Origin: Daphnia carinata
Lineage: Eukaryota; Arthropoda; Branchiopoda; Diplostraca; Daphniidae
Direction of reading: 5' to 3'
Assembly (NCBI RefSeq): GCF_022539665.2
Contig: NW_026712487.1
Location: 1-44,903 of the forward strand
DNA length: 44,903 nucleotides
Position 1 is the stretch's first letter; the number at the start of each line of letters is the position of its first letter. Under the pieces are notes generated by a model. It was not told the origin of the DNA. It worked only from the letters and a program-made list of their open reading frames with translations, and made no database searches. Both the position numbers and the translations under genes were made by a program. Positions 1 through 27,068 of this stretch are shown here, piece after piece.

Positions 1-2476
1 TTTCTTTTGTGTTTGAGGATTTTTCTGAACCCGTAGTTTGTTCAAAACTTGCAGTTTGTTCTGAACTTGTGGTTTGTTCCAAACCCCTAATTGGCTCTGA
101 ACTTGCAGCCCGCTCTGCACTTGCAGGTTGTTCCGTGTCCACCATCTCCTCTGCAGACTCCATTACCTCGACTTGACATTGTTGCTCTCCAATTTCAGCC
201 GGCTCGCCAGCTGTATTTGATGTCTCCGTCTGTTGAGTTTCAGCTTCTTTGATGTCTCTGGAAACAAGATGGTCAAAAGGCGTAGATATTTGTTGTTTGT
301 TTACCTCGGGAATGATCCCATTTGACTCATCTACAATGACGTTTCGACTGATTTCGACTTTTCTCTTTGATGGGATCCATATTCGATAAGCTTTTGTGGA
401 CACACAGCAACCAACAAAGATGCCTTGCACAGCCTTAGGATCAAGTTTTCGTCGTAACGCATCAGGAATATGTACAAAGGAAACAGAACCAAAGATACGC
501 AGGTGCGATACATCCGGCTTTACTCCATGCAGAATTTCATAAGGAGTTGCACTTCCAGTTCTTGATAGGATCCGGTTCCTTATGTAGACTGCGTAGGCGA
601 CTGATTCAGCCCATAGGTAATCAGGAACGTTTCGTGCAAGGTACATACTGCGTGCTGCTTCCATTATAGTACGATTTGCCCTTTCGGAGACACCGTTCTG
701 TTCTGGAGTATATGGGGCACTAAGTTCATGGTTGATTCCCATTTGTTCAAGCCATTCTTCAAATTCTCGATTCACATATTCTCCGCCATTGTCGGATCGT
801 AGTGTGCAGATCTGTCGATTATGTTGATTTTTAAAAATGGCTACAAACTTCTTAAATTGATTGAGGGCTTCGGACTTATGTTGAAGAAAATATATCTCCG
901 ACCAGCCACTGAAGTCGTCCTTGAATAAAACGAAGTAACGAGATTTGTTTGGAGACATCGTTTGCATAGGTCCACAGATGTCAGAGTGTACCAGATCGCC
1001 TACATTGATACCTCTTCTTCTTCCACTTGGAAACGGCAGACGATGCATTTTACCAAGAATGCATCCTGTACATAATGATGATGGGAAGTTACTATGATTA
1101 ATGTGGAGACCGCAAACTGCATTTTGACGTTCCATTTTCATGATGGTCTTGTTGTTTGTATGTGCGAGTCTCTGATGCCAAGTAGAGATTGACAGGCTGG
1201 TGGCGGCGTGTGACGTTGTTTGAATTTTTACAGTGAGATCAAGATAATATAGCTTTTCGTTGGCGCGTTTGCCAGTCATCTCTAACTTTCCGTGGCGAAA
1301 GAAAGTTACCATATCATCAGAAAAAATGGCTTCTATTCCATGTGCTGTGGCAGCACTGATAGAAAAAAGATTTATTCCTAAGCCAGGAACGTAAAGCACG
1401 TCAGTAAGTAGGAGGGATATTCCGATACTGTTAGTTACTTCCACATCACCCTTTCCTTCAGCTTGTAAACAAGTGTTTCCGATACCGAGGACCGAATGAG
1501 TTCCTTTCTTGATTGATTTGAAGTTAACAAGGATTGATCTTTTATCAGTCATGTGTTCAGATGAACCAGAGTCGGCAACAAAACCATAGGTCTCGAAGTC
1601 AAAGCTAGTTGACGATAGATAACTGTGATCTTGATCTGCTGGTTGGACTAGAAGTGAGAGATTCGCGTTTGCTTGATTTTGCTCTGCTTCATGCCTCAAT
1701 CTCACTCTACAGTTTGAGACCTTGTGTGGACCAAGACCGCAATAACCACAAAGTTGCTGTTGATATGGTGGAACTCCTCCTCGTCCTCGATACGTTCCTC
1801 GAAATCCGCGACTACCTCCTCTTAAACCTGGGTATCCACCTCTTCTCGTTCCGCGTGGAATAAAGTAAGGTTGAGGTCTGCCGATCTGCTGATAAGGAAA
1901 GCATGCTGCCTGAGGAAGATTTCCGAATTGACTAGGATGGCTGTAGCTTTGAAAATTAGTTGCTGCATAGGCTCCGCCTTGTTGAGATGCATTCCCGTCT
2001 TGATTCGTAGTAAAGGCTTGAGAGATTGCTTCTTCTTCCTGAAGCTTTGCGAGAAGTAGCTTGACAGTTCTGCCTTCCTCGGGTGAGTTGTTCCATGTTG
2101 TGTAGAAATGACGATAGGTAGATGGGAGAGTGGACAGAATTTTCGACATTACTTGTGTCTCTAGTATTTGTTCACCTACTTCTTTGAGTCTTGACCACAG
2201 GAGTTCAATAGCAGTGACATGGCTTGTCATATTGTGTCCTTGTTTGTATTTATACTCAGTGAATTGTTGAAGTAAGATGAGCCTATTGTCAGCTGCATTT
2301 CGAGCATGTTGATTTCTGATCCTGTCGTACATATCCGCAGCAGTAAGAGATGTGCACAAGGTGTCACGAAGTTCGTCATCGGTCGTAGCGAAGAGATAAT
2401 TCCTTGCAGTGACATCTTTCTCTTTCCATTTATTGATGAGATTGGCGTTTGTGACTATACCATTTTCTCCTCTAGT
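1..2476 (-). CDS. copia copy A Gag-Pol polyprotein, exon 2 (partial, cut by window edge)
   Basis: Open without a stop from the splice acceptor at 2476 to the window edge, about 825 codons. It encodes the rest of Gag, then protease and integrase, and ends in the low-complexity linker before RT. Visible motifs are an Arg-Gly-rich basic stretch, a CX2CX4HX4C zinc knuckle (CGYCGLGPHKVSNC), the protease DSG site, the integrase HHCC finger, and the integrase D, D35E triad (SDNGGEY, then GVSER). The polyprotein would package retrotransposon RNA, process itself and integrate cDNA. It lacks the frameshift that copy B carries in the integrase C-terminal region. The codon before the first exon-2 codon is an in-frame TAG, so translation must enter from exon 1 by splicing or start at a downstream Met. 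RT and RNase H lie beyond the window. Confidence 0.9.
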
Positions 2477-2850
2477 CTAAAATTTGTAATACAGTTTTTG
2501 GTTATTATTGTAATCTGTTTTTCTAAAAAGAATAGAAATATTTTCAAAATTGTTTTATGAGTTATAAATGCATTGATTGATTTGAATATGAGTGCATGAG
2601 TAAAGTCAAATTTATCTGTTTAGGTAATATTATGTTGTTTTCTACTCTTTGGAGTGCATGAGAAAAATCGAAATATCTGATTTTCTCGAAGTTACTATAT
2701 TCTTTCTGATCTTTTAAAGTCCATGAGTAAAATCGAAATATCTGATTTTTCTCGAAACAGAAAAGAAATAAGGATATGGTGACGTTTCTGTTTTAACTTA
2801 AGATGTGTAATTGTTTTTGGCTCGCAATGTAAATTACTGTACAATATTAC
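2477..2850 (-). other. putative spliceosomal intron in copia gag (copy A), 374 bp
   Basis: On the minus strand the donor is GAG|GTAATATTG at 2851/2850 and the acceptor is ACAAATTTTAG|ACT at 2477/2476, both canonical GT-AG. Joining them keeps the frame exactly (phase 0): ...ELKPAE then TRGENGIVTNANLINKW. This gives a normal copia-type Gag N-terminus. Without splicing, the exon-2 frame meets TAG directly before the acceptor, and the exon-1 frame runs on for 51 codons before stopping. The intron is AT-rich and holds three imperfect direct repeats starting near 2591, 2652 and 2717, built on GAGTGCATGAG and ATCGAAATATCTGATTT. Confidence 0.8.
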
Positions 2851-2997
2851 CTCTGCGGGTTTGAGTTCCACTCCATCAATGATGTCTAAGAGACCATGTT
2901 GTTCCAGAATTAGTCTCAAACCACACTTCCAACGGGGAAAATTGCTTCCATTGAACTTAGTTAGATGTCCAATATCCTTAAGAGATGAAGATTCCAT
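2851..2997 (-). CDS. copia copy A gag exon 1 (49 codons)
   Basis: Starts at ATG 2997 and encodes the N-terminal Gag segment with the typical copia Gag pattern FNGSNFPRWKCGLRLILEQ, ending KPAE at the splice donor. The match to the expected Gag N-terminus, directly continued by exon 2, is the main support for this start and for the intron. Unspliced, the frame would give a 100-residue truncated Gag ending at 2695. In this copy the ATG sits only a few bases from the LTR, because the leader and primer-binding site have been deleted. Confidence 0.85.
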
Positions 2998-3001
2998 TTC
3001 A

Positions 3002-3281
3002 ATGAGTAAGTATATTAGACATGTTATTTATACTTAACTGAGATGTATTATTTTGTTATAGAGAATAACACCACAAATAACTTCTTGAGGAAATACAGAT
3101 TAATTAATATTCTTACAGTGATCCAGTCTTGACAGATAGAGAAGAGAGAGAGATTAGAAATAAGAAATTACAGATGTATATATAGTAGTGAGGCAAAGGG
3201 TGAGTCTAAACAGCATCCTTTGTCTTGAGTCGGTTTCGGCAACTTATCGGGTTCCTTGGATTGCGCATTTATATTTCAACA
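3002..3281 (-). repeat. copia LTR shared by copies A and B (inner end deleted)
   Basis: Acts as 5' LTR of copy A and 3' LTR of copy B. The U3 end is intact (minus strand TGTTGAAATAT at 3281) and abuts copy B's polypurine tract. The opposite end is missing. Relative to copy B's LTR and leader, about 45 bp are deleted between two CAT trinucleotides, removing the LTR terminus and the whole primer-binding site. A TATATATA promoter-like box is retained. Confidence 0.9.
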
Positions 3282-3290
3282 TCTCCTCTC
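3282..3290 (-). promoter_or_regulatory. polypurine tract of copia copy B
   Basis: Minus-strand GAGAGGAGA lies directly before the TG of the LTR, the expected position of the plus-strand DNA primer in LTR retrotransposons. The same tract precedes the LTR at 17115 and 21696. Confidence 0.8.
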
Positions 3291-3309
3291 AAACCAAGGA
3301 ACCTGGGAT

Positions 3310-6300
3310 TCAATGATTATTTTCACACATACCAAGACTTTCACGCATTTTCTCAAAATCGGGCTTTGGAAGGGATTTGGTCAGGATATCAGCTCTCTGT
3401 TCTTTAGAGGGTACAAACAAAACATTGATAACACCATCTTCTTGAAGGGAGCGGACAAAGTGATATCTAATGTCTATATGTTTAGTTCTCTGGTGGAATT
3501 CAGGATTGTGAATAGAGCGGATCGCACTTTGATTATCACATAGAAAAGGGACAGGTTGGTCTTCAGTTTCTCCAATTTCAGACAGCAAGCACTTGAGCCA
3601 AACAGCCTCCTTGGAAGATTCTGATGCTGCGACATATTCGGCTTCTGTTGTAGACTGAGACACACATTTTTGTCTGCGGCTGCTCCAGGATACAAGACTA
3701 CCATATACAAAGAAAGTGAATCCAGATGTAGAACAGCGACTGTCTATATCACCACCAAAATCGGCATCTGTATATCCAACAAGAGGTTGGTCTGAGTTTT
3801 CGCCAAGAAGGATTCCAAATTCGGTCGTTCCTGAAAGATAAGAAAGAATTCTTTTTACTGCACTCCAGTGTGCCCGGCCTGGATTTTGGCAAAATTTCGC
3901 GACTTGATTAACGGCATATGAGATGTCTGGTCTACAGGTAATGGACAAATAGAGAAGACATCCGACTGCTTCACGATATGGCACATGTGACATGTCGAGT
4001 TTCTCCTCTTCGGATGTTGGCGACATTTCTAAATTGAGACGAGTGCATGGATCAGCAGGAGTAGACATGGGGTTGCAGGTATCCATTTTAAACTTGACAA
4101 GGATTTTCTTGATAAATTCTGGCTGATTAATCAAGATTTTTCGTTGTTCTTGATCACGATGGATATCAAGGCCGAGGAAGCGGGTTGCTGGTAGACAGCG
4201 CATATCAAATTCCTTGGAAAGAAAGTCAATGATATGCTTTACATTGGACAGGCTGGATCCACACACAATCCCATCGTCTACAAAGATAGCAACAATTAGA
4301 ATATCCTCTCTTCTTCGCCTATAATAAACGCAGGGATCAGATTCACATCTTGAGAGTCCGAATTCGACAAGAAACATGTTGAACTTCTCATTCCAAACTC
4401 TTGGTGCTTGTTTTAAGCCATAAAGACTTTTCTCCAGCAGGCATACATGATCTTCTTTTCCAGCTACTGCAAAACCTTCAGGTTGTTCCATGAAAACTTG
4501 CTCTTTCAGCTTTCCGTAAAGAAAAGCAGTTTTTACATCCAGCAGAGTGACTTCTAAGTTTCTGACTGCAATGATGGCTAAAATGGTACGAAGAGAGTCA
4601 TATTTTAGAACAGGAGCGAAAGTCTCACTATAATCAATACCGTAGCTTTGGGCAAAACCTTTTGCCACTAGTCTGGCTTTGTATCTTTCAGATACACCAG
4701 GATAGCCGGGTTTGATCTTGAACACCCATTTGCAGCCAATGATGTTTCTCTCCGTGGGCCGTTTTACAAGTATCCATGTTTCATTTGCCATAAGTGACTT
4801 GTATTCTTCTTCGATAGCCTTTGTCCATAGTTCAGCTTCATCACTTTTCATAGCTTCTTTGTAGTTTTTCGGCTCAAGGTTTTCAACTGGAGAAATAGAG
4901 ATTGCCGCTTCCATCCCAAATGACGATTTCTGATTTTTCTTTGCTATGTTCCTCCTCCATTCTAAGAATTTTTCGTTGTGGACTGGAACTCGAGATGACT
5001 GACGTCGGGGTAGGGCTATTGCTTGCTGATCGGATCTTGATTCTGCTGAAATGCTTTCTTTTGTGTTTGAGGATTTTTCTGAACCCGTAGTTTGTTCAAA
5101 ACTTGCAGTTTGTTCTGAACTTGTGGTTTGTTCCAAACCCCTAATTGGCTCTGAACTTGCAGCCCGCTCTGCACTTGCAGGTTGTTCCGTGTCCACCATC
5201 TCCTCTGCAGACTCCATTACCTCGACTTGACATTGTTGCTCTCCAATTTCAGCCGGCTCGCCAGCTGTATTTGATGTCTCCGTCTGTTGAGTTTCAGCTT
5301 CTTTGATGTCTCTGGAAACAAGATGGTCAAAAGGCGTAGATATTTGTTGTTTGTTTACCTCGGGAATGATCCCATTTGACTCATCTACAATGACGTTTCG
5401 ACTGATTTCGACTTTTCTCTTTGATGGGATCCATATTCGATAAGCTTTTGTGGACACACAGCAACCAACAAAGATGCCTTGCACAGCCTTAGGATCAAGT
5501 TTTCGTCGTAACGCATCAGGAATATGTACAAAGGAAACAGAACCAAAGATACGCAGGTGCGATACATCCGGCTTTACTCCATGCAGAATTTCATAAGGAG
5601 TTGCACTTCCAGTTCTTGATAGGATCCGGTTCTTATGTAGACTGCGTAGGCGACTGATTCAGCCCATAGGTAATCAGGAACGTTTCGTGCAAGGTACATA
5701 CTGCGTGCTGCTTCCATTATAGTACGATTTGCCCTTTCGGAGACACCGTTCTGTTCTGGAGTATATGGGGCACTAAGTTCATGGTTGATTCCCATTTGTT
5801 CAAGCCATTCTTCAAATTCTCGATTCACATATTCTCCGCCATTGTCGGATCGTAGTGTGCAGATCTGTCGATTATGTTGATTTTTAAAAATGGCTACAAA
5901 CTTCTTAAATTGATTGAGGGCTTCGGACTTATGTTGAAGAAAATATATCTCCGACCAGCCACTGAAGTCGTCCTTGAATAAAACGAAGTAACGAGATTTG
6001 TTTGGAGACATCGTTTGCATAGGTCCACAGATGTCAGAGTGTACCAGATCGCCTACATTGATACCTCTTCTTCTTCCACTTGGAAACGGCAGACGATGCA
6101 TTTTACCAAGAATGCATCCTGTACATAATGATGATGGGAAGTTACTATGATTAATGTGGAGACCGCAAACTGCATTTTGACGTTCCATTTTCATGATGGT
6201 CTTGTTGTTTGTATGTGCGAGTCTCTGATGCCAAGTAGAGATTGACAGGCTGGTGGCGGCGTGTGACGTTGTTTGAATTTTTACAGTGAGATCAAGATAA

Positions 6301-7529
6301 TATAGCTTTTCGTTGGCGCGTTTGCCAGTCATCTCTAACTTTCCGTGGCGAAAGAAAGTTACCATATCATCAGAAAAAATGGCTTCTATTCCATGTGCTG
6401 TGGCAGCACTGATAGAAAAAAGATTTATTCCTAAGCCAGGAACGTAAAGCACGTCAGTAAGTAGGAGGGATATTCCGATACTGTTAGTTACTTCCACATC
6501 ACCCTTTCCTTCAGCTTGTAAACAAGTGTTTCCGATACCGAGGACCGAATGAGTTCCTTTCTTGATTGATTTGAAGTTAACAAGGATTGATCTTTTATCA
6601 GTCATGTGTTCAGATGAACCAGAGTCGGCAACAAAACCATAGGTCTCGAAGTCAAAGCTAGTTGACGATAGATAACTGTGATCTTGATCTGCTGGTTGGA
6701 CTAGAAGTGAGAGATTCGCGTTTGCTTGATTTTGCTCTGCTTCATGCCTCAATCTCACTCTACAGTTTGAGACCTTGTGTGGACCAAGACCGCAATAACC
6801 ACAAAGTTGCTGTTGATATGGTGGAACTCCTCCTCGTCCTCGATACGTTCCTCGAAATCCGCGACTACCTCCTCTTAAACCTGGGTATCCACCTCTTCTC
6901 GTTCCGCGTGGAATGAAGTAAGGTTGAGGTCTGCCGATCTGCTGATAAGGAAAGCATGCTGCCTGAGGAAGATTTCCGAATTGACTAGGATGGCTGTAGC
7001 TTTGAAAATTAGTTGCTGCATAGGCTCCGCCTTGTTGAGATGCATTCCCGTCTTGATTCGTAGTAAAGGCTTGAGAGATTGCTTCTTCTTCCTGAAGCTT
7101 TGCGAGAAGTAGCTTGACAGTTCTGCCTTCCTCGGGTGAGTTGTTCCATGTTGTGTAGAAATGACGATAGGTAGATGGGAGAGTGGACAGAATTTTCGAC
7201 ATTACTTGTGTCTCTAGTATTTGTTCACCTACTTCTTTGAGTCTTGACCACAGGAGTTCAATAGCAGTGACATGGCTTGTCATATTGTGTCCTTGTTTGT
7301 ATTTATACTCAGTGAATTGTTGAAGTAAGATGAGCCTATTGTCAGCTGCATTTCGAGCATGTTGATTTCTGATCCTGTCGTACATATCCGCAGCAGTAAG
7401 AGATGTGCACAAGGTGTCACGAAGTTCGTCATCGGTCGTAGCGAAGAGATAATTCCTTGCAGTGACATCTTTCTCTTTCCATTTATTGATGAGATTGGCG
7501 TTTGTGACTATACCATTTTCTCCTCTAGT
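3310..7529 (-). pseudogene. copia copy B Gag-Pol exon 2 (frameshifted)
   Basis: From the acceptor at 7529 to the stop at 3310 the reading frame is complete except for one lost C near 5631, which splits it into a Gag-protease-integrase part (to 5574) and an RT-RNase H part (from about 5484). Numbering along the polyprotein, residue 1 being the exon-1 Met: zinc knuckle C292, C295, H300, C305; protease DSG at 351; integrase H483, H488, C518, C521 and D548, D611, E647. In the second part, RT has LLDVKTAF (D near 4539) and FVDD (near 4278, the YVDD box). RNase H has YTDADF, TTEAEY and LCDNQSAI. The linker between integrase and RT is rich in Ser, Glu and Thr. Length and domain order fit Ty1/copia. 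Exon 1 also carries a nonsense codon, so this copy is doubly broken. Confidence 0.93.
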
Positions 7530-7903
7530 CTAAAATTTGTAATACAGTTTTTGGTTATTATTGTAATCTGTTTTTCTAAAAAGAATAGAAATATTTTCAA
7601 AATTGTTTTATGAGTTATAAATGCATTGATTGATTTGAATATGAGTGCATGAGTAAAGTCAAATTTATCTGTTTAGGTAATATTATGTTGTTTTCTACTC
7701 TTTGGAGTGCATGAGAAAAATCGAAATATCTGATTTTCTCGAAGTTACTATATTCTTTCTGATCAATTAAAGTCCATGAGTAAAATCGAAATATCTGATT
7801 TTTCTCGAAACAGAAAAGAAATAAGGATATGGTGACGTTTCTGTTTTAACTTAAGATGTGTAATTGTTTTTGGCTCGCAATGTAAATTACTGTACAATAT
7901 TAC
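7530..7903 (-). other. gag intron, copy B, 374 bp
   Basis: Same GT and AG borders and the same length as in copy A, with only a few substitutions (for example near 7763). The repeated GAGTGCATGAG-type blocks are present. Confidence 0.8.
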
Positions 7904-8050
7904 CTCTGCGGGTTTGAGTTCCACTCCATCAATGATGTCTAAGAGACCATGTTGTTCCAGAATTAGTCACAAACCACACTTCCAACGGGGAAAATTGCTT
8001 CCATTGAACTTAGTTAGATGTCCAATATCCTTAAGAGATGAAGATTCCAT
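7904..8050 (-). pseudogene. copia copy B gag exon 1, nonsense at codon 28
   Basis: Same ATG (8050) and donor as copy A, but codon 28 is TGA (plus-strand tca at 7967-7969) where copies A and D have AGA for Arg. Translation from this ATG would stop after 27 residues. Confidence 0.9.
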
Positions 8051-8077
8051 TTCAATGTTACTCTTTTAGTCAGTGAG

Positions 8078-8095
8078 AGTTCTGGGCCCATAACC
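8078..8095 (-). promoter_or_regulatory. copia primer-binding site (initiator tRNA-Met fragment)
   Basis: Directly after the LTR end (minus strand ...TCAACA) comes GGTTATGGGCCCAG. Its complement, CTGGGCCCATAACC, matches the anticodon-arm region of eukaryotic initiator tRNA-Met rather than the tRNA 3' end. This is the known priming mode of Drosophila copia, which uses a 5' half of tRNA-iMet. Confidence 0.85.
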
Positions 8096-8388
8096 TGTTG
8101 ATTATGAGAAAGTATATTAGACATGTTATTTGTACTTTGCATAACTGAGATGTATTATTTTGTTATAGAGAATAACACCACAAAATAACTTCTTGAGGAA
8201 ATACAGATTAATTAATATTCTTACAGTGATCCAGTCTTGACAGATAGAGAAGAGAGAGGATTAGAAATAAGAAATTACAGATGTATATATAGTAGTGAGG
8301 CAAAGGGTGAGTCTAAACAGCATCCTTTGTCTTGAGTCGGTTTCGGCAACTTATCGGGTTCCTTGGATTGCGCATTTATATTTCAACA
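8096..8388 (-). repeat. complete copia LTR (5' LTR of copy B), 293 bp
   Basis: The only LTR in the window with both ends: minus strand starts TGTTGA at 8388 and ends TCAACA at 8096, a perfect 6-bp terminal inverted repeat of TG...CA type. A TATATATA box at 8284-8291 is the likely Pol II promoter. The base after 8388 belongs to the 5S spacer. The sequence accat at 8389-8393 is the candidate half of a 5-bp target duplication; its partner would lie left of the window. Confidence 0.93.
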
Positions 8389-8604: not shown

Positions 8605-8724
8605 ATGCCAACAGCATCCCGTATTCCCAAGCGGTCACCCATCTAGGTACTAACGGAACCCGACGTAGCTTAACTTCCTGGAGCTGACGAGACAAGGTTT
8701 GTTCTACGTGGTATGGCCGTTGAC
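8605..8724 (-). rRNA. 5S rRNA gene 1
   Basis: Minus strand GTCAACGGCCATACCACG ... GATGCTGTTGGCAT. The two ends form a 9-bp helix I (GUCAACGGC with GCUGUUGGC), and the conserved blocks GAAGTTAAGC, GTTAGTAC and GATGGGTGACCGC are present. Transcription would stop at the T4 run just downstream (8595-8598). 5S rRNA is the Pol III-transcribed RNA of the large ribosomal subunit. This is the reference sequence for the other units. Confidence 0.97.
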
Positions 8725-9075
8725 AATTCAGTTCCAAAATAAAATGAATACACTCCAGTAATGTCCATTAAAACCAGCACAAGTACAATTGATTTATATA
8801 GTTAAGGATATTGGACTGGTAACCATCGCGTTCGGTCAACCACAAAAATGCAAACAAATAAAATTCACTTTCTTTAAAGAGGTCACTTTTCTCACGGAAA
8901 TGCACCATTCTTTTTGTATTTCGTTTTAAAATACCTCTAGTTTATAGAAGATGAAATTTCAAAACTGACCACTGACCACTAGGTGGCGTCTTAGAAAATA
9001 CTATAATTCATCGCGAGATGGTTCGTACTTCCCTGTGATTCATCCAAAAACGGCTAGGTGGATATAAAAGTTTTG

Positions 9076-9195
9076 ATGCCAACAGCATCCCGTATTCCCA
9101 AGCGGTCACCCATCTAGGTACTAACGGAACCCGACGTAGCTTAACTTCCTGGAGCTGACGAGACAAGGTTTGTTCTACGTGGTATGGCCGTTGAC
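9076..9195 (-). rRNA. 5S rRNA gene 2
   Basis: Identical to gene 1 in the gene body. Its downstream spacer holds the 7-bp duplication that makes this the 471-bp unit. Confidence 0.97.
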
Positions 9196-9539
9196 AATTC
9201 AGTTCCAAAATAAAATGAATACACTCCAGTAATGTCCATTAAAACCAGCACAAGTACAATTGATTTATATAGTTAAGGATATTGGACTGGTAACCATCGC
9301 GTTCGGTCAACCACAAAAATGCAAACATATAAAATTCACTTTCTTTAAAGAGGTCACTTTTCTCACGGAAATGCACCATTCTTTTTGTATTTCGTTTTAA
9401 AATACCTCTAGTTTATAGAAGATGAAATTTCAAAACTGACCACTAGGTGGCGTCTTAGAAAATACTATAATTCATCGCGAGATGGTTCGTACTTCCCTGT
9501 GATTCATCCAAAAACGGCTAGGTGGATATAAAAGTTTTG

Positions 9540-9659
9540 ATGCCAACAGCATCCCGTATTCCCAAGCGGTCACCCATCTAGGTACTAACGGAACCCGACG
9601 TAGCTTAACTGCAGGGAGCTGACGAGACAAGGTTTGTTCTACGTGGTATGGCCGTTGAC
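9540..9659 (-). rRNA. 5S rRNA gene 3 (variant in helix III region)
   Basis: Differs from all other units by three clustered substitutions at 9611-9616: minus-strand CTCCCTGCAGTTAAG instead of CTCCAGGAAGTTAAG. This changes the nearly universal GAAG of the helix III / loop region to GCAG. It may be a variant or non-functional gene. Confidence 0.9.
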
Positions 9660-10003
9660 AATTCAGTTCCAAAATAAAATGAATACACTCCAGTAATGTC
9701 CATTAAAACCAGCACAAGTACAATTGATTTATATAGTTAAGGATATTGGACTGGTAACCATCGCGTTCGGTCAACCACAAAAATGCAAACATATAAAATT
9801 CACTTTCTTGAAAGAGGTCACTTTTCTCACGGAAATGCACCATTCTTTTTGTATTTCGTTTTAAAATACCTCTAGTTTATAGAAGATGAAATTTCAAAAC
9901 TGACCACTAGGTGGCGTCTTAGAAAATACTATAATTCATCGCGAGATGGTTCGTACTTCCCTGTGATTCATCCAAAAACGGCTAGGTGGATATAAAAGTT
10001 TTG

Positions 10004-10123
10004 ATGCCAACAGCATCCCGTATTCCCAAGCGGTCACCCATCTAGGTACTAACGGAACCCGACGTAGCTTAACTTCCTGGAGCTGACGAGACAAGGTTTG
10101 TTCTACGTGGTATGGCCGTTGAC
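10004..10123 (-). rRNA. 5S rRNA gene 4
   Basis: Gene body matches gene 1; R-type spacer with the cttgaaag form. Confidence 0.97.
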
Positions 10124-10467
10124 AATTCAGTTCCAAAATAAAATGAATACACTCCAGTAATGTCCATTAAAACCAGCACAAGTACAATTGATTTATATAG
10201 TTAAGGATATTGGACTGGTAACCATCGCGTTCGGTCAACCACAAAAATGCAAACATATAAAATTCACTTTCTTGAAAGAGGTCACTTTTCTCACGGAAAT
10301 GCACCATTCTTTTTGTATTTCGTTTTAAAATACCTCTAGTTTATAGAAGATGAAATTTCAAAACTGACCACTAGGTGGCGTCTTAGAAAATACTAGAATT
10401 CATCGCGAGATGGTTCGTACTTCCCTGTGATTCATCCAAAAACGGCTAGGTGGATATAAAAGTTTTG

Positions 10468-10587
10468 ATGCCAACAGCATCCCGTATTCCCAAGCGGTCA
10501 CCCATCTAGGTACTAACGGAACCCGACGTAGCTTAACTTCCTGGAGCTGACGAGACAAGGTTTGTTCTACGTGGTATGGCCGTTGAC
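10468..10587 (-). rRNA. 5S rRNA gene 5
   Basis: Gene body matches gene 1. The downstream spacer is hybrid: actagaattc as in W units but atcgcg as in R units. Confidence 0.97.
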
Positions 10588-10931
10588 AATTCAGTTCCAA
10601 AATAAAATGAATACACTCCAGTAATGTCCATTAAAACCAGCACAAGTACAATTGATTTATATAGTTAAGGATATTGGACTGGTAACCATCGCGTTCGGTC
10701 AACCACAAAAATGATAACAAATAAAATTCACTTTCTTGAAAGAGGTCACTTTTCTCACGGAAATGCACCATTCTTTTTGTATTTCGTTTTAAAATACCTC
10801 TAGTTTATAGAAGATGAAATTTCAAAACTGACCACTAGGTGGCGTCTTAGAAAATACTATAATTCATCGCGAGATGGTTCGTACTTCCCTGTGATTCATC
10901 CAAAAACGGCTAGGTGGATATAAAAGTTTTG

Positions 10932-11052
10932 ATGCCAACAGCATCCCGTATTCCCAAGCGGTCACCCATCTAGGTTACTAACGGAACCCGACGTAGCTTA
11001 ACTTCCTGGAGCTGACGAGACAAGGTTTGTTCTACGTGGTATGGCCGTTGAC
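10932..11052 (-). rRNA. 5S rRNA gene 6 (one-base insertion)
   Basis: 121 nt, with one extra T (plus strand) near 10975: minus-strand GTTAGTAACCTAG instead of GTTAGTACCTAG. The insertion falls in the highly conserved loop E / helix IV region next to the internal promoter C-box, so this unit may be a pseudogene. Its adjoining spacer on the left carries the rare aaaatgataac form shared only with that next to gene 13. Confidence 0.9.
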
Positions 11053-11396
11053 AATTCAGTTCCAAAATAAAATGAATACACTCCAGTAATGTCCATTAAA
11101 ACCAGCACAAGTACAATTGATTTATATAGTTAAGGATATTGGACTGGTAACCATCGCGTTCGGTCAACCACAAAAATGCAAACATATAAAATTCACTTTC
11201 TTGAAAGAGGTCACTTTTCTCACGGAAATGCACCATTCTTTTTGTATTTCGTTTTAAAATACCTCTAGTTTATAGAAGATGAAATTTCAAAACTGACCAC
11301 TAGGTGGCGTTTTAGAAAATACTAGAATTCACCACGAGATGGTTCGTACTTCCCTGTGATTCATCCAAAAACGGCTAGGTGGATATAAAAGTTTTG

Positions 11397-11516
11397 ATGC
11401 CAACAGCATCCCGTATTCCCAAGCGGTCACCCATCTAGGTACTAACGGAACCCGACGTAGCTTAACTTCCTGGAGCTGACGAGACAAGGTTTGTTCTACG
11501 TGGTATGGCCGTTGAC
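11397..11516 (-). rRNA. 5S rRNA gene 7
   Basis: Gene body matches gene 1; first of the W-haplotype units (agaattcaccacg downstream). Confidence 0.97.
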
Positions 11517-11860
11517 AATTCAGTTCCAAAATAAAATGAATACACTCCAGTAATGTCCATTAAAACCAGCACAAGTACAATTGATTTATATAGTTAAGGA
11601 TATTGGACTGGTAACCATCGCGTTCGGTCAACCACAAAAATGCAAACATATAAAATTCACTTTCTTGAAAGAGGTCACTTTTCTCACGGAAATGCACCAT
11701 TCTTTTTGTATTTCGTTTTAAAATACCTCTAGTTTATAGAAGATGAAATTTCAAAACTGACCACTAGGTGGCGTTTTAGAAAATACTAGAATTCACCACG
11801 AGATGGTTCGTACTTCCCTGTGATTCATCCAAAAACGGCTAGGTGGATATAAAAGTTTTG

Positions 11861-17114: not shown

Positions 17115-17142
17115 TCTCCTCTCAAACCAAGGAACCTGGGAT

Positions 17143-20100
17143 TCAATGATTATTTTCACACATACCAAGACTTTCACGCATTTTCTCAAAATCGGGCTTT
17201 GGAAGGGATTTGGTCAGGATATCAGCTCTCTGTTCTTTAGAGGGTACAAACAAAACATTGATAACACCATCTTCTTGAAGGGAGCGGACAAAGTGATATC
17301 TAATGTCTATATGTTTAGTTCTCTGGTGGAATTCAGGATTGTGAATAGAGCGGATCGCACTTTGATTATCACATAGAAAAGGGACAGGTTGGTCTTCAGT
17401 TTCTCCAATTTCAGACAGCAAGCACTTGAGCCAAACAGCCTCCTTGGAAGATTCTGATGCTGCGACATATTCGGCTTCTGTTGTAGACTGAGACACACAT
17501 TTTTGTCTGCGGCTGCTCCAGGATACAAGACTACCATATACAAAGAAAGTGAATCCAGATGTAGAACAGCGACTGTCTATATCACCACCAAAATCGGCAT
17601 CTGTATATCCAACAAGAGGTTGGTCTGAGTTTTCGCCAAGAAGGATTCCAAATTCGGTCGTTCCTGAAAGATAAGAAAGAATTCTTTTTACTGCACTCCA
17701 GTGTGCCCGGCCTGGATTTTGGCAAAATTTCGCGACTTGATTAACGGCATATGAGATGTCTGGTCTACAGGTAATGGACAAATAGAGAAGACATCCGACT
17801 GCTTCACGATATGGCACATGTGACATGTCGAGTTTCTCCTCTTCGGATGTTGGCGACATTTCTAAATTGAGACGAGTGCATGGATCAGCAGGAGTAGACG
17901 TGGGGTTGCAGGTATCCATTTTAAACTTGACAAGGATTTTCTTGATAAATTCTGGCTGATTAATCAAGATTTTTCGTTGTTCTTGATCACGATGGATATC
18001 AAGGCCGAGGAAGCGGGTTGCTGGTAGACAGCGCATATCAAATTCCTTGGAAAGAAAGTCAATGATATGCTTTACATTGGACAGGCTGGATCCACACACA
18101 ATCCCATCGTCTACAAAGATAGCAACAATTAGAATATCCTCTCTTCTTCGCCTATAATAAACGCAGGGATCAGATTCACATCTTGAGAGTCCGAATTCGA
18201 CAAGAAACATGTTGAACTTCTCATTCCAAACTCTTGGTGCTTGTTTTAAGCCATAAAGACTTTTCTCCAGCAGGCATACATGATCTTCTTTTCCAGCTAC
18301 TGCAAAACCTTCAGGTTGTTCCATGAAAACTTGCTCTTTCAGCTTTCCGTAAAGAAAAGCAGTTTTTACATCCAGCAGAGTGACTTCTAAGTTTCTGACT
18401 GCAATGATGGCTAAAATGGTACGAAGAGAGTCATATTTTAGAACAGGAGCGAAAGTCTCACTATAATCAATACCGTAGCTTTGGGCAAAACCTTTTGCCA
18501 CTAGTCTGGCTTTGTATCTTTCAGATACACCAGGATAGCCGGGTTTGATCTTGAACACCCATTTGCAGCCAATGATGTTTCTCTCCGTGGGCCGTTTTAC
18601 AAGTATCCATGTTTCATTTGCCATAAGTGACTTGTATTCTTCTTCGATAGCCTTTGTCCATAGTTCAGCTTCATCACTTTTCATAGCTTCTTTGTAGTTT
18701 TTCGGCTCAAGGTTTTCAACTGGAGAAATAGAGATTGCCGCTTCCATCCCAAATGACGATTTCTGATTTTTCTTTGCTATGTTCCTCCTCCATTCTAAGA
18801 ATTTTTCGTTGTGGACTGGAACTCGAGATGACTGACGTCGGGGTAGGGCTATTGCTTGCTGATCGGATCTTGATTCTGCTGAAATGCTTTCTTTTGTGTT
18901 TGAGGATTTTTCTGAACCCGTAGTTTGTTCAAAACTTGCAGTTTGTTCTGAACTTGTGGTTTGTTCCAAACCCCTAATTGGCTCTGAACTTGCAGCCCGC
19001 TCTGCACTTGCAGGTTGTTCCGTGTCCACCATCTCCTCTGCAGACTCCATTACCTCGACTTGACATTGTTGCTCTCCAATTTCAGCCGGCTCGCCAGCTG
19101 TATTTGATGTCTCCGTCTGTTGAGTTTCAGCTTCTTTGATGTCTCTGGAAACAAGATGGTCAAAAGGCGTAGATATTTGTTGTTTGTTTACCTCGGGAAT
19201 GATCCCATTTGACTCATCTACAATGACGTTTCGACTGATTTCGACTTTTCTCTTTGATGGGATCCATATTCGATAAGCTTTTGTGGACACACAGCAACCA
19301 ACAAAGATGCCTTGCACAGCCTTAGGATCAAGTTTTCGTCGTAACGCATCAGGAATATGTACAAAGGAAACAGAACCAAAGATACGCAGGTGCGATACAT
19401 CCGGCTTTACTCCATGCAGAATTTCATAAGGAGTTGCACTTCCAGTTCTTGATAGGATCCGGTTCCTTATGTAGACTGCGTAGGCGACTGATTCAGCCCA
19501 TAGGTAATCAGGAACGTTTCGTGCAAGGTACATACTGCGTGCTGCTTCCATTATAGTACGATTTGCCCTTTCGGAGACACCGTTCTGTTCTGGAGTATAT
19601 GGGGCACTAAGTTCATGGTTGATTCCCATTTGTTCAAGCCATTCTTCAAATTCTCGATTCACATATTCTCCGCCATTGTCGGATCGTAGTGTGCAGATCT
19701 GTCGATTATGTTGATTTTTAAAAATGGCTACAAACTTCTTAAATTGATTGAGGGCTTCGGACTTATGTTGAAGAAAATATATCTCCGACCAGCCACTGAA
19801 GTCGTCCTTGAATAAAACGAAGTAACGAGATTTGTTTGGAGACATCGTTTGCATAGGTCCACAGATGTCAGAGTGTACCAGATCGCCTACATTGATACCT
19901 CTTCTTCTTCCACTTGGAAACGGCAGACGATGCATTTTACCAAGAATGCATCCTGTACATAATGATGATGGGAAGTTACTATGATTAATGTGGAGACCGC
20001 AAACTGCATTTTGACGTTCCATTTTCATGATGGTCTTGTTGTTTGTATGTGCGAGTCTCTGATGCCAAGTAGAGATTGACAGGCTGGTGGCGGCGTGTGA

Positions 20101-21361
20101 CGTTGTTTGAATTTTTACAGTGAGATCAAGATAATATAGCTTTTCGTTGGCGCGTTTGCCAGTCATCTCTAACTTTCCGTGGCGAAAGAAAGTTACCATA
20201 TCATCAGAAAAAATGGCTTCTATTCCATGTGCTGTGGCAGCACTGATAGAAAAAAGATTTATTCCTAAGCCAGGAACGTAAAGCACGTCAGTAAGTAGGA
20301 GGGATATTCCGATACTGTTAGTTACTTCCACATCACCCTTTCCTTCAGCTTGTAAACAAGTGTTTCCGATACCGAGGACCGAATGAGTTCCTTTCTTGAT
20401 TGATTTGAAGTTAACAAGGATTGATCTTTTATCAGTCATGTGTTCAGATGAACCAGAGTCGGCAACAAAACCATAGGTCTCGAAGTCAAAGCTAGTTGAC
20501 GATAGATAACTGTGATCTTGATCTGCTGGTTGGACTAGAAGTGAGAGATTCGCGTTTGCTTGATTTTGCTCTGCTTCATGCCTCAATCTCACTCTACAGT
20601 TTGAGACCTTGTGTGGACCAAGACCGCAATAACCACAAAGTTGCTGTTGATATGGTGGAACTCCTCCTCGTCCTCGATACGTTCCTCGAAATCCGCGACT
20701 ACCTCCTCTTAAACCTGGGTATCCACCTCTTCTCGTTCCGCGTGGAATAAAGTAAGGTTGAGGTCTGCCGATCTGCTGATAAGGAAAGCATGCTGCCTGA
20801 GGAAGATTTCCGAATTGACTAGGATGGCTGTAGCTTTGAAAATTAGTTGCTGCATAGGCTCCGCCTTGTTGAGATGCATTCCCGTCTTGATTCGTAGTAA
20901 AGGCTTGAGAGATTGCTTCTTCTTCCTGAAGCTTTGAGAAGTAGCTTGACAGTTCTGCCTTCCTCGGGTGAGTTGTTCCATGTTGTGTAGAAATGACGAT
21001 AGGTAGATGGGAGAGTGGACAGAATTTTCGACATTACTTGTGTCTCTAGTATTTGTTCACCTACTTCTTTGAGTCTTGACCACAGGAGTTCAATAGCAGT
21101 GACATGGCTTGTCATATTGTGTCCTTGTTTGTATTTATACTCAGTGAATTGTTGAAGTAAGATGAGCCTATTGTCAGCTGCATTTCGAGCATGTTGATTT
21201 CTGATCCTGTCGTACATATCCGCAGCAGTAAGAGATGTGCACAAGGTGTCACGAAGTTCGTCATCGGTCGTAGCGAAGAGATAATTCCTTGCAGTGACAT
21301 CTTTCTCTTTCCATTTATTGATGAGATTGGCGTTTGTGACTATACCATTTTCTCCTCTAGT
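17143..21361 (-). pseudogene. copia copy C Gag-Pol exon 2 (gag frameshift, exon 1 lost)
   Basis: Protease, integrase, RT and RNase H are open without interruption; from an internal Met at 20592 to the stop at 17143 the frame is 1149 codons, with all catalytic motifs (DSG, integrase D,D35E, FVDD, YTDADF). Two bases are missing near 20936 (gctttgagaag instead of gctttgcgagaag), which shifts Gag out of frame before the zinc knuckle. A Met-to-Thr change follows RT (STPAD block, near 17900). Upstream, gag exon 1, most of the intron, the leader and the primer-binding site are gone. This copy has the best-preserved pol in the window but cannot make a normal Gag. Confidence 0.92.
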
Positions 21362-21414
21362 CTAAAATTTGTAATACAGTTTTTGGTTATTATTGTAATC
21401 TGTTTTTCTAAAAA
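21362..21414 (-). other. remnant of gag intron, copy C (53 bp, acceptor side)
   Basis: Keeps the acceptor and the AT-rich branch-point side (AATAATAACC, minus strand), then runs straight into the LTR. The donor and exon 1 are deleted. Confidence 0.85.
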
Positions 21415-21695
21415 AGTAAGTATATTAGACATGTTATTTGTACTTTGCATAACTGAGATGTATTATTTTGTTATAGAGAATAACACCACAAATAACTTCT
21501 TGAGGAAATACAGATAAATTAATATTCTTACAGTGATCCAGTCTTGACAGATAGAGAAGAGAGAGAGTTAGAAATAAGAAATTACAGATGTATATATAGT
21601 AGTGAGGCAAAGGGTGAGTCTAAACAGCATCCTTTGTCTTGAGTCGGTTTCGGCAACTTATCGGGTTCCTTGGATTGCGCATTTATATTTCAACA
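21415..21695 (-). repeat. copia LTR shared by copies C and D (inner end deleted)
   Basis: U3 end intact at 21695 next to copy D's polypurine tract. On the other side it is broken at agtaagtatatt, the same LTR position at which the A/B LTR is broken. Carries the acagataaatt and gagagagagttag variants. Confidence 0.9.
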
Positions 21696-21723
21696 TCTCC
21701 TCTCAAACCAAGGAACCTGGGAT

Positions 21724-24700
21724 TCAATGATTATTTTCACACATACCAAGACTTTCACGCATTTTCTCAAAATCGGGCTTTGGAAGGGATTTGGTCAGGA
21801 TATCAGCTCTCTGTTCTTTAGAGGGTACAAACAAAACATTGATAACACCATCTTCTTGAAGGGAGCGGACAAAGTGATATCTAATGTCTATATGTTTAGT
21901 TCTCTGGTGGAATTCAGGATTATGAATAGAGCGGATCGCACTTTGATTATCACATAGAATAGGGACAGGTTGGTCTTCAGTTTCTCCAATTTCAGACAGC
22001 AAGCACTTGAGCCAAACAGCCTCCTTGGAAGATTCTGATGCTGCGACATATTCGGCTTCTGTTGTAGACTGAGACACACATTTTTGTCTGCGGCTGCTCC
22101 AGGATACAAGACTACCATATACAAAGAAAGTGAATCCAGATGTAGAACAGCGACTGTCTATATCACCACCAAAATCGGCATCTGTATATCCAACAAGAGG
22201 TTGGTCTGAGTTTTCGCCAAGAAGGATTCCAAATTCGGTCGTTCCTGAAAGATAAGAAAGAATTCTTTTTACTGCACTCCAGTGTGCCCGGCCTGGATTT
22301 TGGCAAAATTTCGCGACTTGATTAACGGCATATGAGATGTCTGGTCTACAGGTAATGGACAAATAGAGAAGACATCCGACTGCTTCACGATATGGCACAT
22401 GTGACATGTCGAGTTTCTCCTCTTCGGATGTTGGCGACATTTCTAAATTGAGACGAGTGCATGGATCAGCAGGAGTAGACATGGGGTTGCAGGTATCCAT
22501 TTTAAACTTGACAAGGATTTTCTTGATAAATTCTGGCTGATTAATCAAGATTTTTCGTTGTTCTTGATCACGATGGATATCAAGGCCGAGGAAGCGGGTT
22601 GCTGGTAGACAGCGCATATCAAATTCCTTGGAAAGAAAGTCAATGATATGCTTTACATTGGACAGGCTGGATCCACACACAATCCCATCGTCTACAAAGA
22701 TAGCAACAATTAGAATATCCTCTCTTCTTCGCCTATAATAAACGCAGGGATCAGATTCACATCTTGAGAGTCCGAATTCGACAAGAAACATGTTGAACTT
22801 CTCATTCCAAACTCTTGGTGCTTGTTTTAAGCCATAAAGACTTTTCTCCAGCAGGCATACATGATCTTCTTTTCCAGCTACTGCAAAACCTTCAGGTTGT
22901 TCCATGAAAACTTGCTCTTTCAGCTTTCCGCAAAGAAAAGCAGTTTTTACATCCAGCAGAGTGACTTCTAAGTTTCTGACTGCAATGATGGCGTAGCTTT
23001 GGGCAAAAACCTTTTGCCACTAGTCTGGCTTTGTATCTTTCAGATACACCAGGATAGCCGGGTTTGATCTTGAACACCCATTTGCAGCCAATGATGTTTC
23101 TCTCCGTGGGCCGTTTTACAAGTATCCATGTTTCATTTGCCATAAGTGACTTGTATTCTTCTTCGATAGCCTTTGTCCATAGTTCAGCTTCATCACTTTT
23201 CATAGCTTCTTTGTAGTTTTTCGGCTCAAGGTTTTCAACTGGAGAAATAGAGATTGCCGCTTCCATCCCAAATGACGATTTCTGATTTTTCTTTGCTATG
23301 TTCCTCCTCCATTCTAAGAATTTTTCGTTGTGGACTGGAACTCGAGATGACTGACGTCGGGGTAGGGCTATTGCTTGCTGATCGGATCTTGATTCTGCTG
23401 AAATGCTTTCTTCTGTGTTTGAAGATTTTTCTGAACCCGTAGTTTGTTCAAAACTTGCAGTTTGTTCTGAACTTGCGGTTTGTTCCAAACCCCTAATTGG
23501 CTCTGAACTTGCAGCCCGCTCTGCACTTGCAGGTTGTTCCGTGTCCACCATCTCCTCTGCAGACTCCATTTCCTCGACTTGACATTGTTGCTCTACAATT
23601 TCGGCCGGCTCGCCAGCTGTATTTGATGTCTCCGTCTGTTGAGTTTCAGCTTCTTTGATGTCTCTGGAAACAAGATGGTCAAAAGGCGTAGATATTTGTT
23701 GTTTGTTTACCTCGGGAATGATCCCATTTGACTCATCTACAATGACGTTTCGACTGATTTCGACTTTTCTCTTTGATGGGATCCATATTCGATAAGCTTT
23801 TGTGGACACACAGCAACCAACAAAGATGCCTTGCACAGCCTTAGGATCAAGTTTTCGTCGTAACGCATCAGGAATATGTACAAAGGAAACAGAACCAAAG
23901 ATACGCAGGTGCGATACATCCGGCTTTACTCCATGCAGAATTTCATAAGGAGTTGCACTTCCAGTTCTTGATAGGATCCGGTTCTGTATGTAGACTGCGT
24001 AGGCGACTGATTCAGCCCATAGGTGATCAGGAACGTTTCGTGCAAGATACATACTGCGTGCTGCTTCCATTATAGTACGATTTGCCCTTTCGGAGACACC
24101 GTTCTGTTCTGGAGTATATGGGGCACTAAGTTCATGGTTGATTCCCATTTGTTCAAGCCATTCTTCAAATTCTCGATTCACATATTCTCCGCCATTGTCG
24201 GATCGTAGTGTGCAGATCTGTCGATTATGTTGATTTTTAAAAATGGCTACAAACTTCTTGAATTGATTGAGGGCTTCGGACTTATGTTGAAGAAAATATA
24301 CCTCCGACCAGCCACTGAAGTCGTCCTTGAATAAAACGAAGTAACGAGATTTGTTTGGAGACATCGTTTGCATAGGTCCACAAATGTCAGAGTGTACCAG
24401 ATCGCCTACATTGATACCTCTTCTTCTTCCACTTGGAAACGGCAGACGATGCATTTTACCAAGAATGCATCCTGTACATAATGATGATGGGAAGTTACTA
24501 TGATTAATGTGGAGACCGCAAACTGCATTTTGACGTTCCATTTTCATGATGGTCTTGTTGTTTGTATGTGCGAGTCTCTGATGCCAAGTAGAGATTGACA
24601 GGCTGGTGGCGGCGTGTGACGTTGTTTGAATTTTTACAGTGAGATCAAGATAATATAGCTTTTCGTTGGCGCGTTTGCCAGTCATCTCTAACTTTCCGTG

Positions 24701-25882
24701 GCGAAAGAAAGTTACCATATCATCAGAAAAAATGGCTTCTATTCCATGTGCTGTGGCAGCACTGATAGAAAAAAGATTTATTCCTAAGCCAGGAACGTAA
24801 AGCACGTCAGTAAGTAGGAGGGATATTCCGATACTGTTAGTTACTTCCACATCACCCTTTCCTTCAGCTTGTAAACAAGTGTTTCCGATACCGAGGACCG
24901 AATGAGTTCCTTTCTTGATTGATTTGAAGTTAACAAGGATTGATCTTTTATCAGTCATGTGTTCAGATGAACCAGAGTCGGCAACAAAACCATAGGTCTC
25001 GAAGTCAAAGCTAGTTGACGATAGATAACTGTGATCTTGATCTGCTGGTTGGACTAGAAGTGAGAGATTCGCGTTTGCTTGATTTTGCTCTGCTTCATGC
25101 CTCAATCTCACTCTACAGTTTGAGACCTTGTGTGGACCAAGACCGCAATAACCACAAAGTTGCTGTTGATATGGTGGAACTCCTCCTCGTCCTCGATACG
25201 TTCCTCGAAATCCGCGACTACCTCCTCTTAAACCTGGGTATCCACCTCTTCTCGTTCCGCGTGGAATGAAGTAAGGTTGAGGTCTGCCGATCTGCTGATA
25301 AGGAAAGTATGCTGCCTGAGGAAGATTTCCGAATTGACTGGGATGGCTGTAGCTTTGAAAATTAGTTGCTGCATAGGCTCCGCCTTGTTGAGATGCATTC
25401 CCGTCTTGATTCGTAGTAAAGGCTTGAGAGATTGCTTCTTCTTCCTGAAGCTTTGCGAGAAGTAGCTTGACAGTTCTGCCTTCCTCGGGTGAGTTGTTCC
25501 ATGTTGTGTAGAAATGACGATAGGTAGATGGGAGAGTGGACAGAATTTTCGACATTACTTGTGTCTCTAGTATTTGTTCACCTACTTCTTTGAGTCTTGA
25601 CCACAGGAGTTCAATAGCAGTGACATGGCTTGTCATATTGTGTCCTTGTTTGTATTTATACTCAGTGAATTGTTGAAGTAAGATGAGCCTATTGTCAGCT
25701 GCATTTCGAGCATGTTGATTTCTGATCCTGTCGTACATATCCGCAGCAGTAAGAGATGTGCACAAGGTGTCACGAAGTTCGTCATCGGTCGTAGCGAAGA
25801 GATAATTCCTTGCAGTGACATCTTTCTCTTTCCATTTATTGATGAGATTGGCGTTTGTGACTATACCATTTTCTCCTCTAGT
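21724..25882 (-). pseudogene. copia copy D Gag-Pol exon 2 (RT deletion and frameshift)
   Basis: Gag, protease and integrase are open from the acceptor at 25882 into RT. There, 63 bp are missing at 22991/22992, removing 21 codons (the YSETFAPVLKYDSLRT region before RT motif A), and an extra A near 23006 shifts the frame so that this part ends at 22892. A second frame from 22905 to 21724 covers the rest of RT (FVDD intact) and RNase H. D is the most diverged copy: it has private changes such as Q for R in the integrase YIQNRI block and Cys for Tyr in the FLCGKLK block. RT is very probably inactive. Confidence 0.92.
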
Positions 25883-25927
25883 CTAAAATTTGTAATACAG
25901 TTTTTGGTTATTATTGTAATCTGTTTT

Positions 25928-26018
25928 AATAGTTTAACATTTGTGATGGTTGAAGTACGTAGATAATTACAAACTCATAGTCAGGTTTAAACAATTAAGT
26001 GAGTGATAAAATAGTTCC

Positions 26019-26056
<38 letters not shown>

Positions 26057-26081
26057 TATATAAAATAAAAAAGGTTTAATT
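25928..26081. mobile_element. 154-bp insertion in copy D intron, 9-bp target duplication
   Basis: Flanked by direct atctgtttt copies at 25919-25927 and 26082-26090; copies A and B have one atctgtttt here. Contains a 33-T run (26023-26055) followed by AT-rich sequence. No clear terminal inverted repeat. The T-run would be a poly-A on the minus strand, which fits a short retroposed sequence, but it is not at the very end. Class unknown. Confidence 0.65.
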
Positions 26082-26370
26082 ATCTGTTTTTCTAAAAAGA
26101 ATAGAAATATTTTCAAAATTGTTTTATGAGTTATAAATGCATTGATTGATTTGAATATGAGTGCATGAGTAAAGTCAAATTTATCTGTTTAGGTAATATT
26201 ATGTTGTTTTCTACTCTTTGGAGTGCATGAGAAAAAAAAAATCGAAATATCTGATTTTCTCGAAGTTACTATATTCTTTCTGATCTTTAAAGTCCATGAG
26301 TAAAATCGAAATATCTGATTTTTCTCGAAACAGAAAAGAAATAAGGATATGGTAACGTTTCTGTTTTAAC

Positions 26371-26548
26371 TATTGAGCATAGTAATGATTGTTTGTATGC
26401 AAGTTAATTTCACAAAAATAATGATGTTCTGCATTAATATACTATTGACAAAAAAAAATTCCTGAAATATACAGCTACTGCAAAAAAAAAATCAATTTTA
26501 CGATGAAAAAAAAATTTTAGTATCATTTAAGTTTGCAATAGAGAATAT
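26371..26548. mobile_element. 178-bp insertion in copy D intron, 8-bp target duplication
   Basis: Flanked by gttttaac at 26363-26370 and 26549-26556; copies A and B have a single gttttaac. The insert is AT-rich with several A-runs and no coding capacity. An 8-bp duplication is typical of hAT-type transposons, but I see no convincing terminal inverted repeats, so the class is open. Confidence 0.6.
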
Positions 26549-26611
26549 GTTTTAACTTAAGATGTGTAATTGTTTTTTTGGCTCGCAATGTAAATTACTG
26601 TACAATATTAC

Positions 26612-26758
26612 CTCTGCGGGTTTGAGTTCCACTCCATCAATGATGTCTAAGAGACCATGTTGTTCCAGAATTAGTCTCAAACCACACTTCCAACGGGGAA
26701 AATTGCTTCCATTGAACTTAGTTAGATGTCCAATATCCTTAAGAGATGAAGATTCCAT
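26612..26758 (-). CDS. copia copy D gag exon 1 (49 codons)
   Basis: Intact ATG at 26758 and the same 49 residues as copy A (MESSSLKDIG start, KPAE end) up to the donor. The full leader and primer-binding site lie upstream, so this copy keeps the normal 5' layout. If unspliced, the frame ends after 68 residues. Confidence 0.85.
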
Positions 26759-26785
26759 TTCAATGTTACTCTTTTAGTCAGTGAG

Positions 26786-26803: not shown

Positions 26804-27068
26804 TGTTGAATATGAGTAAGTATATTACATGTTATTTGTACATAACTGAGATGTATTATTTTGTTATAGAGAATAACACCACAAATAACTTCTTGAGGAA
26901 ATACAGATAAATTAATATTCTTACAATGATCCAGTCTTGACAGATAGAGAAGAGAGAGAGTTAGAAATAAGAAATTACAGATGTATATATAGTAGTGAGG
27001 CAAAGGGTGAGTCTAAACAGCATCCTTTGTCTTGAGTCGGTTTCGGCAACTTATCGGGTTCCTTGGAT
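26804..27068 (-). repeat. truncated copia 5' LTR of copy D
   Basis: Inner end intact (tgttgaatatg at 26804). At the outer end about 20 bp of U3, including the terminal TGTTGA, are replaced by satellite sequence at ccttggat|attcac. The TATATATA box near 26985 is retained. Confidence 0.9.

Follow-up and report, generated by a model that had tools for sequence, protein, structure and literature searches.

A predicted spliceosomal intron near the start of gag in a lineage of Daphnia copia retrotransposons

A divided gag in copia elements beside a 5S rDNA array

The window analysed here is a 44,903-nucleotide contig of Daphnia carinata (NW_026712487.1; contig C35 of the 108-Mb assembly to which all genome counts below refer). 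A mitochondrial COI of this assembly, translated with the invertebrate code, has 97% identity to proteins of Daphnia magna and D. carinata, which places the host in Daphnia. The window carries four copies, A to D, of a long terminal repeat (LTR) retrotransposon on the minus strand, flanking both sides of a 5S ribosomal DNA (rDNA) array and adjoining a 70-bp satellite (Table 1). The elements belong to the Ty1/copia superfamily: the Pfam matches run in the order Retrotran_gag_2, gag_pre-integrs, rve, RVT_2, with the integrase before a copia-type reverse transcriptase (RT), and copies of the same family on contigs C5 and C7 have LTRs bounded by TG...CA and 5-bp target-site duplications (TSDs). 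The subject of this work is a short segment that interrupts gag near its start and that we predict to be a spliceosomal intron.

The first exon of copy A weakly matches two Pfam models of the copia Gag N-terminus, DUF4219 (E 0.005) and Retrotran_gag_3 (E 0.014), both below cut-off, and the second exon of copy D matches Retrotran_gag_2 (E 1.5e-24) from profile position 26 onward. The two parts of a copia Gag are therefore separated in copy A by 374 nt with GT-AG borders. The initial annotation had proposed a 49-codon first exon joined to the second in phase 0 across GT-AG borders in copies A, B and D. This is what we find, with the same borders in all three, and exon 1 of copy B contains an in-frame TGA. 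Copy C keeps the 3′ end of the intron alone, fused to LTR-side sequence. The segment thus combines GT-AG borders with a frame-keeping join, as expected of a spliceosomal intron; two groups of related elements need AAG acceptors. The TAG preceding the acceptor shares the frame of exon 2, as had been noted; it is not what first stops translation of the unspliced RNA from exon 1, where a stop comes earlier, at intron codon index 51 in copy A and 19 in copy D.

Nine places in the genome hold exon 2 preceded by the intron's 3′ end, all nine with the same acceptor, and in seven of these copies exon 1 and the donor are present too. Copy C and a copy at 301 kb on contig C10 hold only part of the intron. 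The intron measures 374 nt in A and B, which represent a shortened form, and 721, 726, 729, 739 or 771 nt in D and the remaining copies, which are alike. Within the family the introns vary by large insertions and deletions, and exon 2 differs at 0-3 of 590 sites compared. When A or B is compared with the long copies, the intron shows substitutions at 28-31 of 373 sites, part of which may stem from alignment around the deletions, together with 5-6 gap events, and exon 2 differs at 1-3 of 590 sites. By eye, each of the two large gaps of the A and B intron relative to copy D lies between direct repeats of ~8-10 nt, a pattern such as template jumping would leave.

Intronless copies of the family, which the initial annotation had named as the thing to look for, did not appear: all nine copies contain intron sequence, and a probe for fused exon 1-exon 2 gave no hits in the whole genome at up to 3 mismatches. 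Two copies are recent RNA-mediated insertions. The C5 copy has the TSD ATGAA, an LTR pair identical at 290 of 291 positions and an intron of 726 nt; the C7 copy has the TSD CTTGA, an LTR pair identical at 290 of 290 positions with one gap and an intron of 739 nt. Because these copies, with their TSDs and near-identical LTRs, hold the intron, intron-bearing RNA has recently been reverse transcribed.

Distribution of the intron among copia families

The intron is common to a whole lineage and not confined to the single family in which it was first noted. The exon-2 protein matches 82 places in the genome (E ≤ 0.001) and the 49-aa exon-1 protein 69 places (E ≤ 1). We fetched 60 gag regions and matched both exons in each: 26 loci, all outside the window family, have extra sequence (at least 58 nt) between the exon matches, 30 lack such sequence, and four fall elsewhere: L059 also has a window-family copy besides an intronless one, and no exon-2 match was obtained in L077, L082 or L083. 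The codon aligned to codon 49 is directly followed by GT in all 26 loci that have the extra sequence and in only 4 of the 30 that lack it, all four belonging to one family. Of the 26, 24 were read in detail, alongside L047, a copy with a broken frame from an intronless family. In 20 loci we could name an acceptor that keeps the frame. Those with both borders named make up 10 families, or 11 with the window family, L065 being counted with the L034 family because the two are 82% identical over 99 aa.

The introns are 61-563 nt long in the other families and reach 771 nt in the window family; the short ones (61-81 nt) agree with the median intron lengths of 63 and 77 bp given for D. pulex in PMC5427498. 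Read unspliced, 19 of the 20 other-family loci run into a stop or a change of frame, and several intron families have open frames of at least 1300 codons. Counting 9 window-family loci and 26 others, 35 of 35 retain the intron, though many of them are close copies and hence non-independent. By eye, related short introns of L031, L032, L034 and L065 have in common the word CCAACAG, ~25-45 nt past the donor. In L077, L078 and L082 the exon-1 match is followed by GT and exon 2 is distant or unmatched; these are possibly degenerate members or elements with longer introns.

Clustering at 80% identity, with exon-2 matches shorter than 110 aa left out (for example L061, L065, L068-L071 and L078), placed 45 rows in 19 clusters, of which 11 carry the intron and 7 lack it; the last, L079, is broken and its state uncertain. 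None of the 19 mixes intron-bearing and intronless copies. In the seven intronless families exons 1 and 2 lie in one frame in most members, the exceptions being L047 and L059 (frame breaks) and L063 (a stop). One of them, comprising L026, L027, L055 and L057, aligns from codon 49 into exon 2 with zero extra residues, which supports a join made by splicing in the intron families. Its next two bases at this point are GT (GAG/GTC, the slash marking the place of the intron), and such colinearity is compatible with a proto-splice site as well as with a precise loss. Exon 2 also begins with GT in several intron families (L028, L031, L032), so that, with the L026 family, AG/GT is seen at both intron sides; such a pattern is consistent with an intron that arose at a proto-splice site or through tandem duplication.

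The number of gains was examined with gag trees and, as an independent marker, with pol. A rooted gag tree of exons 1 and 2 with two outgroups joins the ten intron families in one clade (support 94/94; 93/96 unrooted). This tree and one of the exon-2 core were built without L066, L073, L079 and L063 (broken or partial), P0003, P0005, P0009 and P0012, with L050 in place of L063. An earlier gag tree, which contained P0003, P0005 and distant outgroups, has few supported forks; on it the intron label changes once among Daphnia rows, and three times if P0003 and P0005 are counted as other. Among 31 metagenome relatives examined from the best 120 of 151 proteins, 7 near the intron families begin at exon 2 without exon 1, exon 1 lies inside the open reading frame of 6 outgroup-like proteins and of 9 that are close to intronless families, and 9 are uninformative because they start inside or past exon 2; for these rows an intron is read from a missing exon 1 at the protein level, where the start was chosen by gene callers.

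The pol tree (1035 columns, built without P0152 and P0154, which are near P0151) separates 8 intron-type rows, including the window, as one clade from 11 other labelled rows (100/98). Seven rows with exon 1 in frame form a grade outside the intron clade, and 7 unlabelled rows fall within it. An initial RT tree that took in five short fragments had little resolution, and the one from L098 gave no match; when RT fragments were added to full pol rows, L025, L031 and L040 fell inside the intron clade (94/99) and the intronless L026 outside. Since the intron-type rows form one pol clade within an intronless grade, a single gain is suggested. The initial annotation had held that a related element with an uninterrupted Gag would speak against the intron. 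Seven families of the same genome have just such a Gag; because such rows lie outside the intron clade in the rooted two-exon gag tree and in the pol trees, and one of these families is residue-exact in its colinearity, they look ancestral and do not refute the intron. Together, the colinear intronless relatives and the fact that position and borders are conserved among divergent families strongly support a spliceosomal intron of gag.

Proposed roles of spliced and unspliced RNA

Elements copied through RNA should shed their introns, and it was the loss of an intron in transit that classically demonstrated an RNA intermediate. We propose that the gag intron was gained once in the lineage of Daphnia-type copia retrotransposons and then inherited with the elements; that host splicing would unite exons 1 and 2 to make the mRNA for Gag-Pol; and that the RNA packaged and reverse transcribed would be the unspliced, full-length form, so that every new copy would again contain the intron. 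The initial annotation had suggested such a division between packaged and translated RNA, and the part that concerns transposition is borne out: because recent insertions carry the intron, the intron-bearing RNA is the transposing form. The other part stays a prediction. Gag can be made only if the two exons are joined, which makes spliced RNA the likely message, and the nearly universal block to reading through the other-family loci also suggests that this RNA serves as mRNA. Retention of the intron in every locus in turn implies that spliced RNA is rarely copied, and we infer that splicing occurs and that its product stays out of the replicated pool. As the unspliced RNA of most copies encodes a short peptide only, the roles of genome and message would be split between two RNA forms.

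This combination of a single, inherited gain with a spliced Gag-Pol message and an unspliced genome is, in our judgement, very probably the best explanation of the whole. A more far-reaching statement, that the lineage gave up translating its genomic RNA, we hold to be somewhat better than an even chance; it would mean a gag intron gained once at AG/GT, unspliced RNA used only as genome and spliced RNA only as message, and exclusion of the latter from replication well enough for 35/35 retention, across at least 11 families. The donors look weak, G at +5 being found only in L025, L028 and L054 among those read in detail, and we would guess that this may help to maintain the unspliced pool.

Several observations weigh against this account. 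Splicing itself is proposed from sequence anatomy, and the junctions are putative. The L024 and L031 groups require AAG acceptors, which are unusual, and six loci with a donor and extra sequence (L049, L061, L066, L068, L071 and L078) have no acceptor that could be named. The 61-nt introns leave little space for a packaging signal within the intron. On the exon-2 core alone the intron clade is not recovered and two changes are needed, although a single clade is not rejected (approximately unbiased (AU) test, p 0.319). The 81-nt intron of L025 reads through without a stop, and this open frame would also suit a segment that is never spliced, with exon 2 translated by internal initiation and exon 1 a leader peptide that is Gag-like by descent. 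We think this very improbable, because the exon 1 protein is conserved at many places, a GT stands past codon 49 in all 26 loci with extra sequence, and colinear intronless relatives exist.

A more serious alternative, though still an unlikely one, is a real intron whose splicing regulates or limits expression, with spliced RNA sometimes packaged and the resulting intronless copies lost by selection or chance. An intronless element is viable, as seven such families in the same genome attest, and the L026 family has, at the place of the intron, the bases and the exact colinearity that a precise loss leaves. However, this alternative does not sit well with the lack of mixed clusters and of fused junctions in the window family. 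Moreover, both the two-exon gag tree and the pol tree place L026, though weakly, outside the intron clade, and a constraint that groups L026 with the intron rows worsens the exon-2 core tree by 12.1 log units (AU p 0.041). Least credible, to the point of being nearly negligible, is that the insert-bearing copies are decayed or DNA-duplicated and that the intron never passed through RNA. Within the window such an idea is natural enough, since A and B are near-identical neighbours with a common LTR, D and C also have one LTR between them, A and C have no primer-binding site (PBS) and exon 1 of copy B has a stop; it founders on the C5 and C7 insertions with their TSDs and near-identical LTR pairs, and on the long open frames of several intron families.

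Known retroelements that splice differ from this arrangement in informative ways. Drosophila copia, like the Daphnia elements, is a Ty1/copia element using host splicing for a second RNA, but there splicing takes out ~2.9 kb of pol to give a Gag-only RNA (as described in PMC3735527), whereas the Daphnia intron is shorter, lies within gag before the Retrotran_gag_2 match, and its splicing would restore the Gag-Pol frame. The contrast with copia drawn in the initial annotation is therefore upheld, as pol is not removed. BARE1 of barley, another member of the copia superfamily, has one RNA pool for translation, another for replication, and a short intron; according to the same source this is an alternative intron of 104 nt that lies where gag ends and terminates the frame, giving Gag only, and two promoters set the pools. 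The Daphnia join instead keeps the frame open into exon 2. Because splicing of copia and BARE yields Gag-only RNA, the Daphnia layout, which would restore Gag-Pol, is different and new; we found no earlier description of a gag intron layout of this kind in the open-access literature searched.

In the plant element Ogre the intron lies between gag-pro and RT, and Bianca is described as having two open reading frames with a gap averaging 172 bp (PMC6317226); as proposed here, the intron is reported to be spliced from part of the transcripts, making the whole polyprotein readable. The Daphnia intron follows gag codon 49, and unspliced Ogre RNA, to judge by its layout, would still make Gag. Cer1 of C. 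elegans and retroviruses also have an unspliced genomic RNA that must escape splicing and be exported; there, by the account in PMC10309623, that RNA is the Gag-Pol mRNA too and the spliced RNA gives another protein, whereas most unspliced Daphnia copies cannot make Gag. Copia elements of the same superfamily and host genus have been catalogued, with 44 families in D. pulex (PMC2996953) and a CoDpu clade (PMC3587641); words beginning with intron or splic- do not occur in the main texts of these two papers. The host suggests that the window elements may belong to the CoDpu clade. No relatives among viral contigs were confirmed.

How a single transcript is shared out between message and genome is a general problem of retroelements; in the Daphnia elements the two proposed forms would differ by a fixed, measurable junction. 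A lineage that gains an intron and keeps it over deep divergence must exclude its translated RNA from the replication pool, and the introns of 61-81 nt in some families narrow the possible location of a packaging signal. Within the window, the 374-nt intron folds somewhat better than shuffled sequence (z -2.49; 1 of 100 shuffles equally good) and its inner 211 nt less so (z -1.44; 21 of 200 shuffles equally good); a tandem array was looked for in the intron and not found. Because other families have 61-nt introns, we do not claim a packaging signal inside it.

Layout of the window

The copies are arranged as head-to-tail pairs with one LTR per pair, B with A (1-8388) and D with C (16916-27068). 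In copies A and C the end of the LTR next to the PBS is missing along with the PBS itself. The PBS of copy B is presumably of the copia half-tRNA-iMet type, which it resembles.

Table 1. Coordinates of the copia features in the window
Feature	Copy	Position	Strand	Remarks
Gag exon 2 and start of pol	A	1..2476	(-)	825 aa open; frame leaves window edge
Intron	A	2477..2850	(-)	374 nt, GTAATA...ATTTTAG
Gag exon 1	A	2851..2997	(-)	49 codons from first ATG
LTR	B (3′ LTR) and A (5′ LTR)	3002..3281	(-)	common to both copies
Exon 2 (gag and initial part of pol)	B	5574..7529	(-)	frame broken near end
Intron	B	7530..7903	(-)	374 nt
Gag exon 1	B	7904..8050	(-)	contains in-frame TGA
PBS	B	8082..8095	(-)	GGTTATGGGCCCAG
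5′ LTR	B	8096..8388	(-)	TG...CA; adjoins 5S rDNA array
Exon 2 and pol	C	17143..21361	(-)	two overlapping frames
Intron 3′ remnant	C	21362..21414	(-)	exon 1 and PBS deleted
LTR	D (3′ LTR) and C (5′ LTR)	21415..21695	(-)	common to both copies
Exon 2	D	22892..25882	(-)	gag, protease region, integrase, RT start
Intron	D	25883..26611	(-)	729 nt
Gag exon 1	D	26612..26758	(-)	
5′ LTR	D	26804..27068	(-)	cut off by satellite

Between the two pairs lie 18 5S rRNA genes in tandem (8606-16622), in steps of mostly ~464 bp, with copia elements at either end of the array; the 3′ LTR of copy C is cut into 5S spacer near 16916. The 70-bp satellite array runs from 27068 to at least 40082 and truncates the 5′ LTR of copy D. 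A similar satellite, judged by eye, flanks the copies on C5 and C86 and the remnant at 301 kb on C10. Elsewhere in the assembly, contig C92 has two COI matches ~16.7 kb apart, as if the mitochondrial genome had been assembled twice in tandem.
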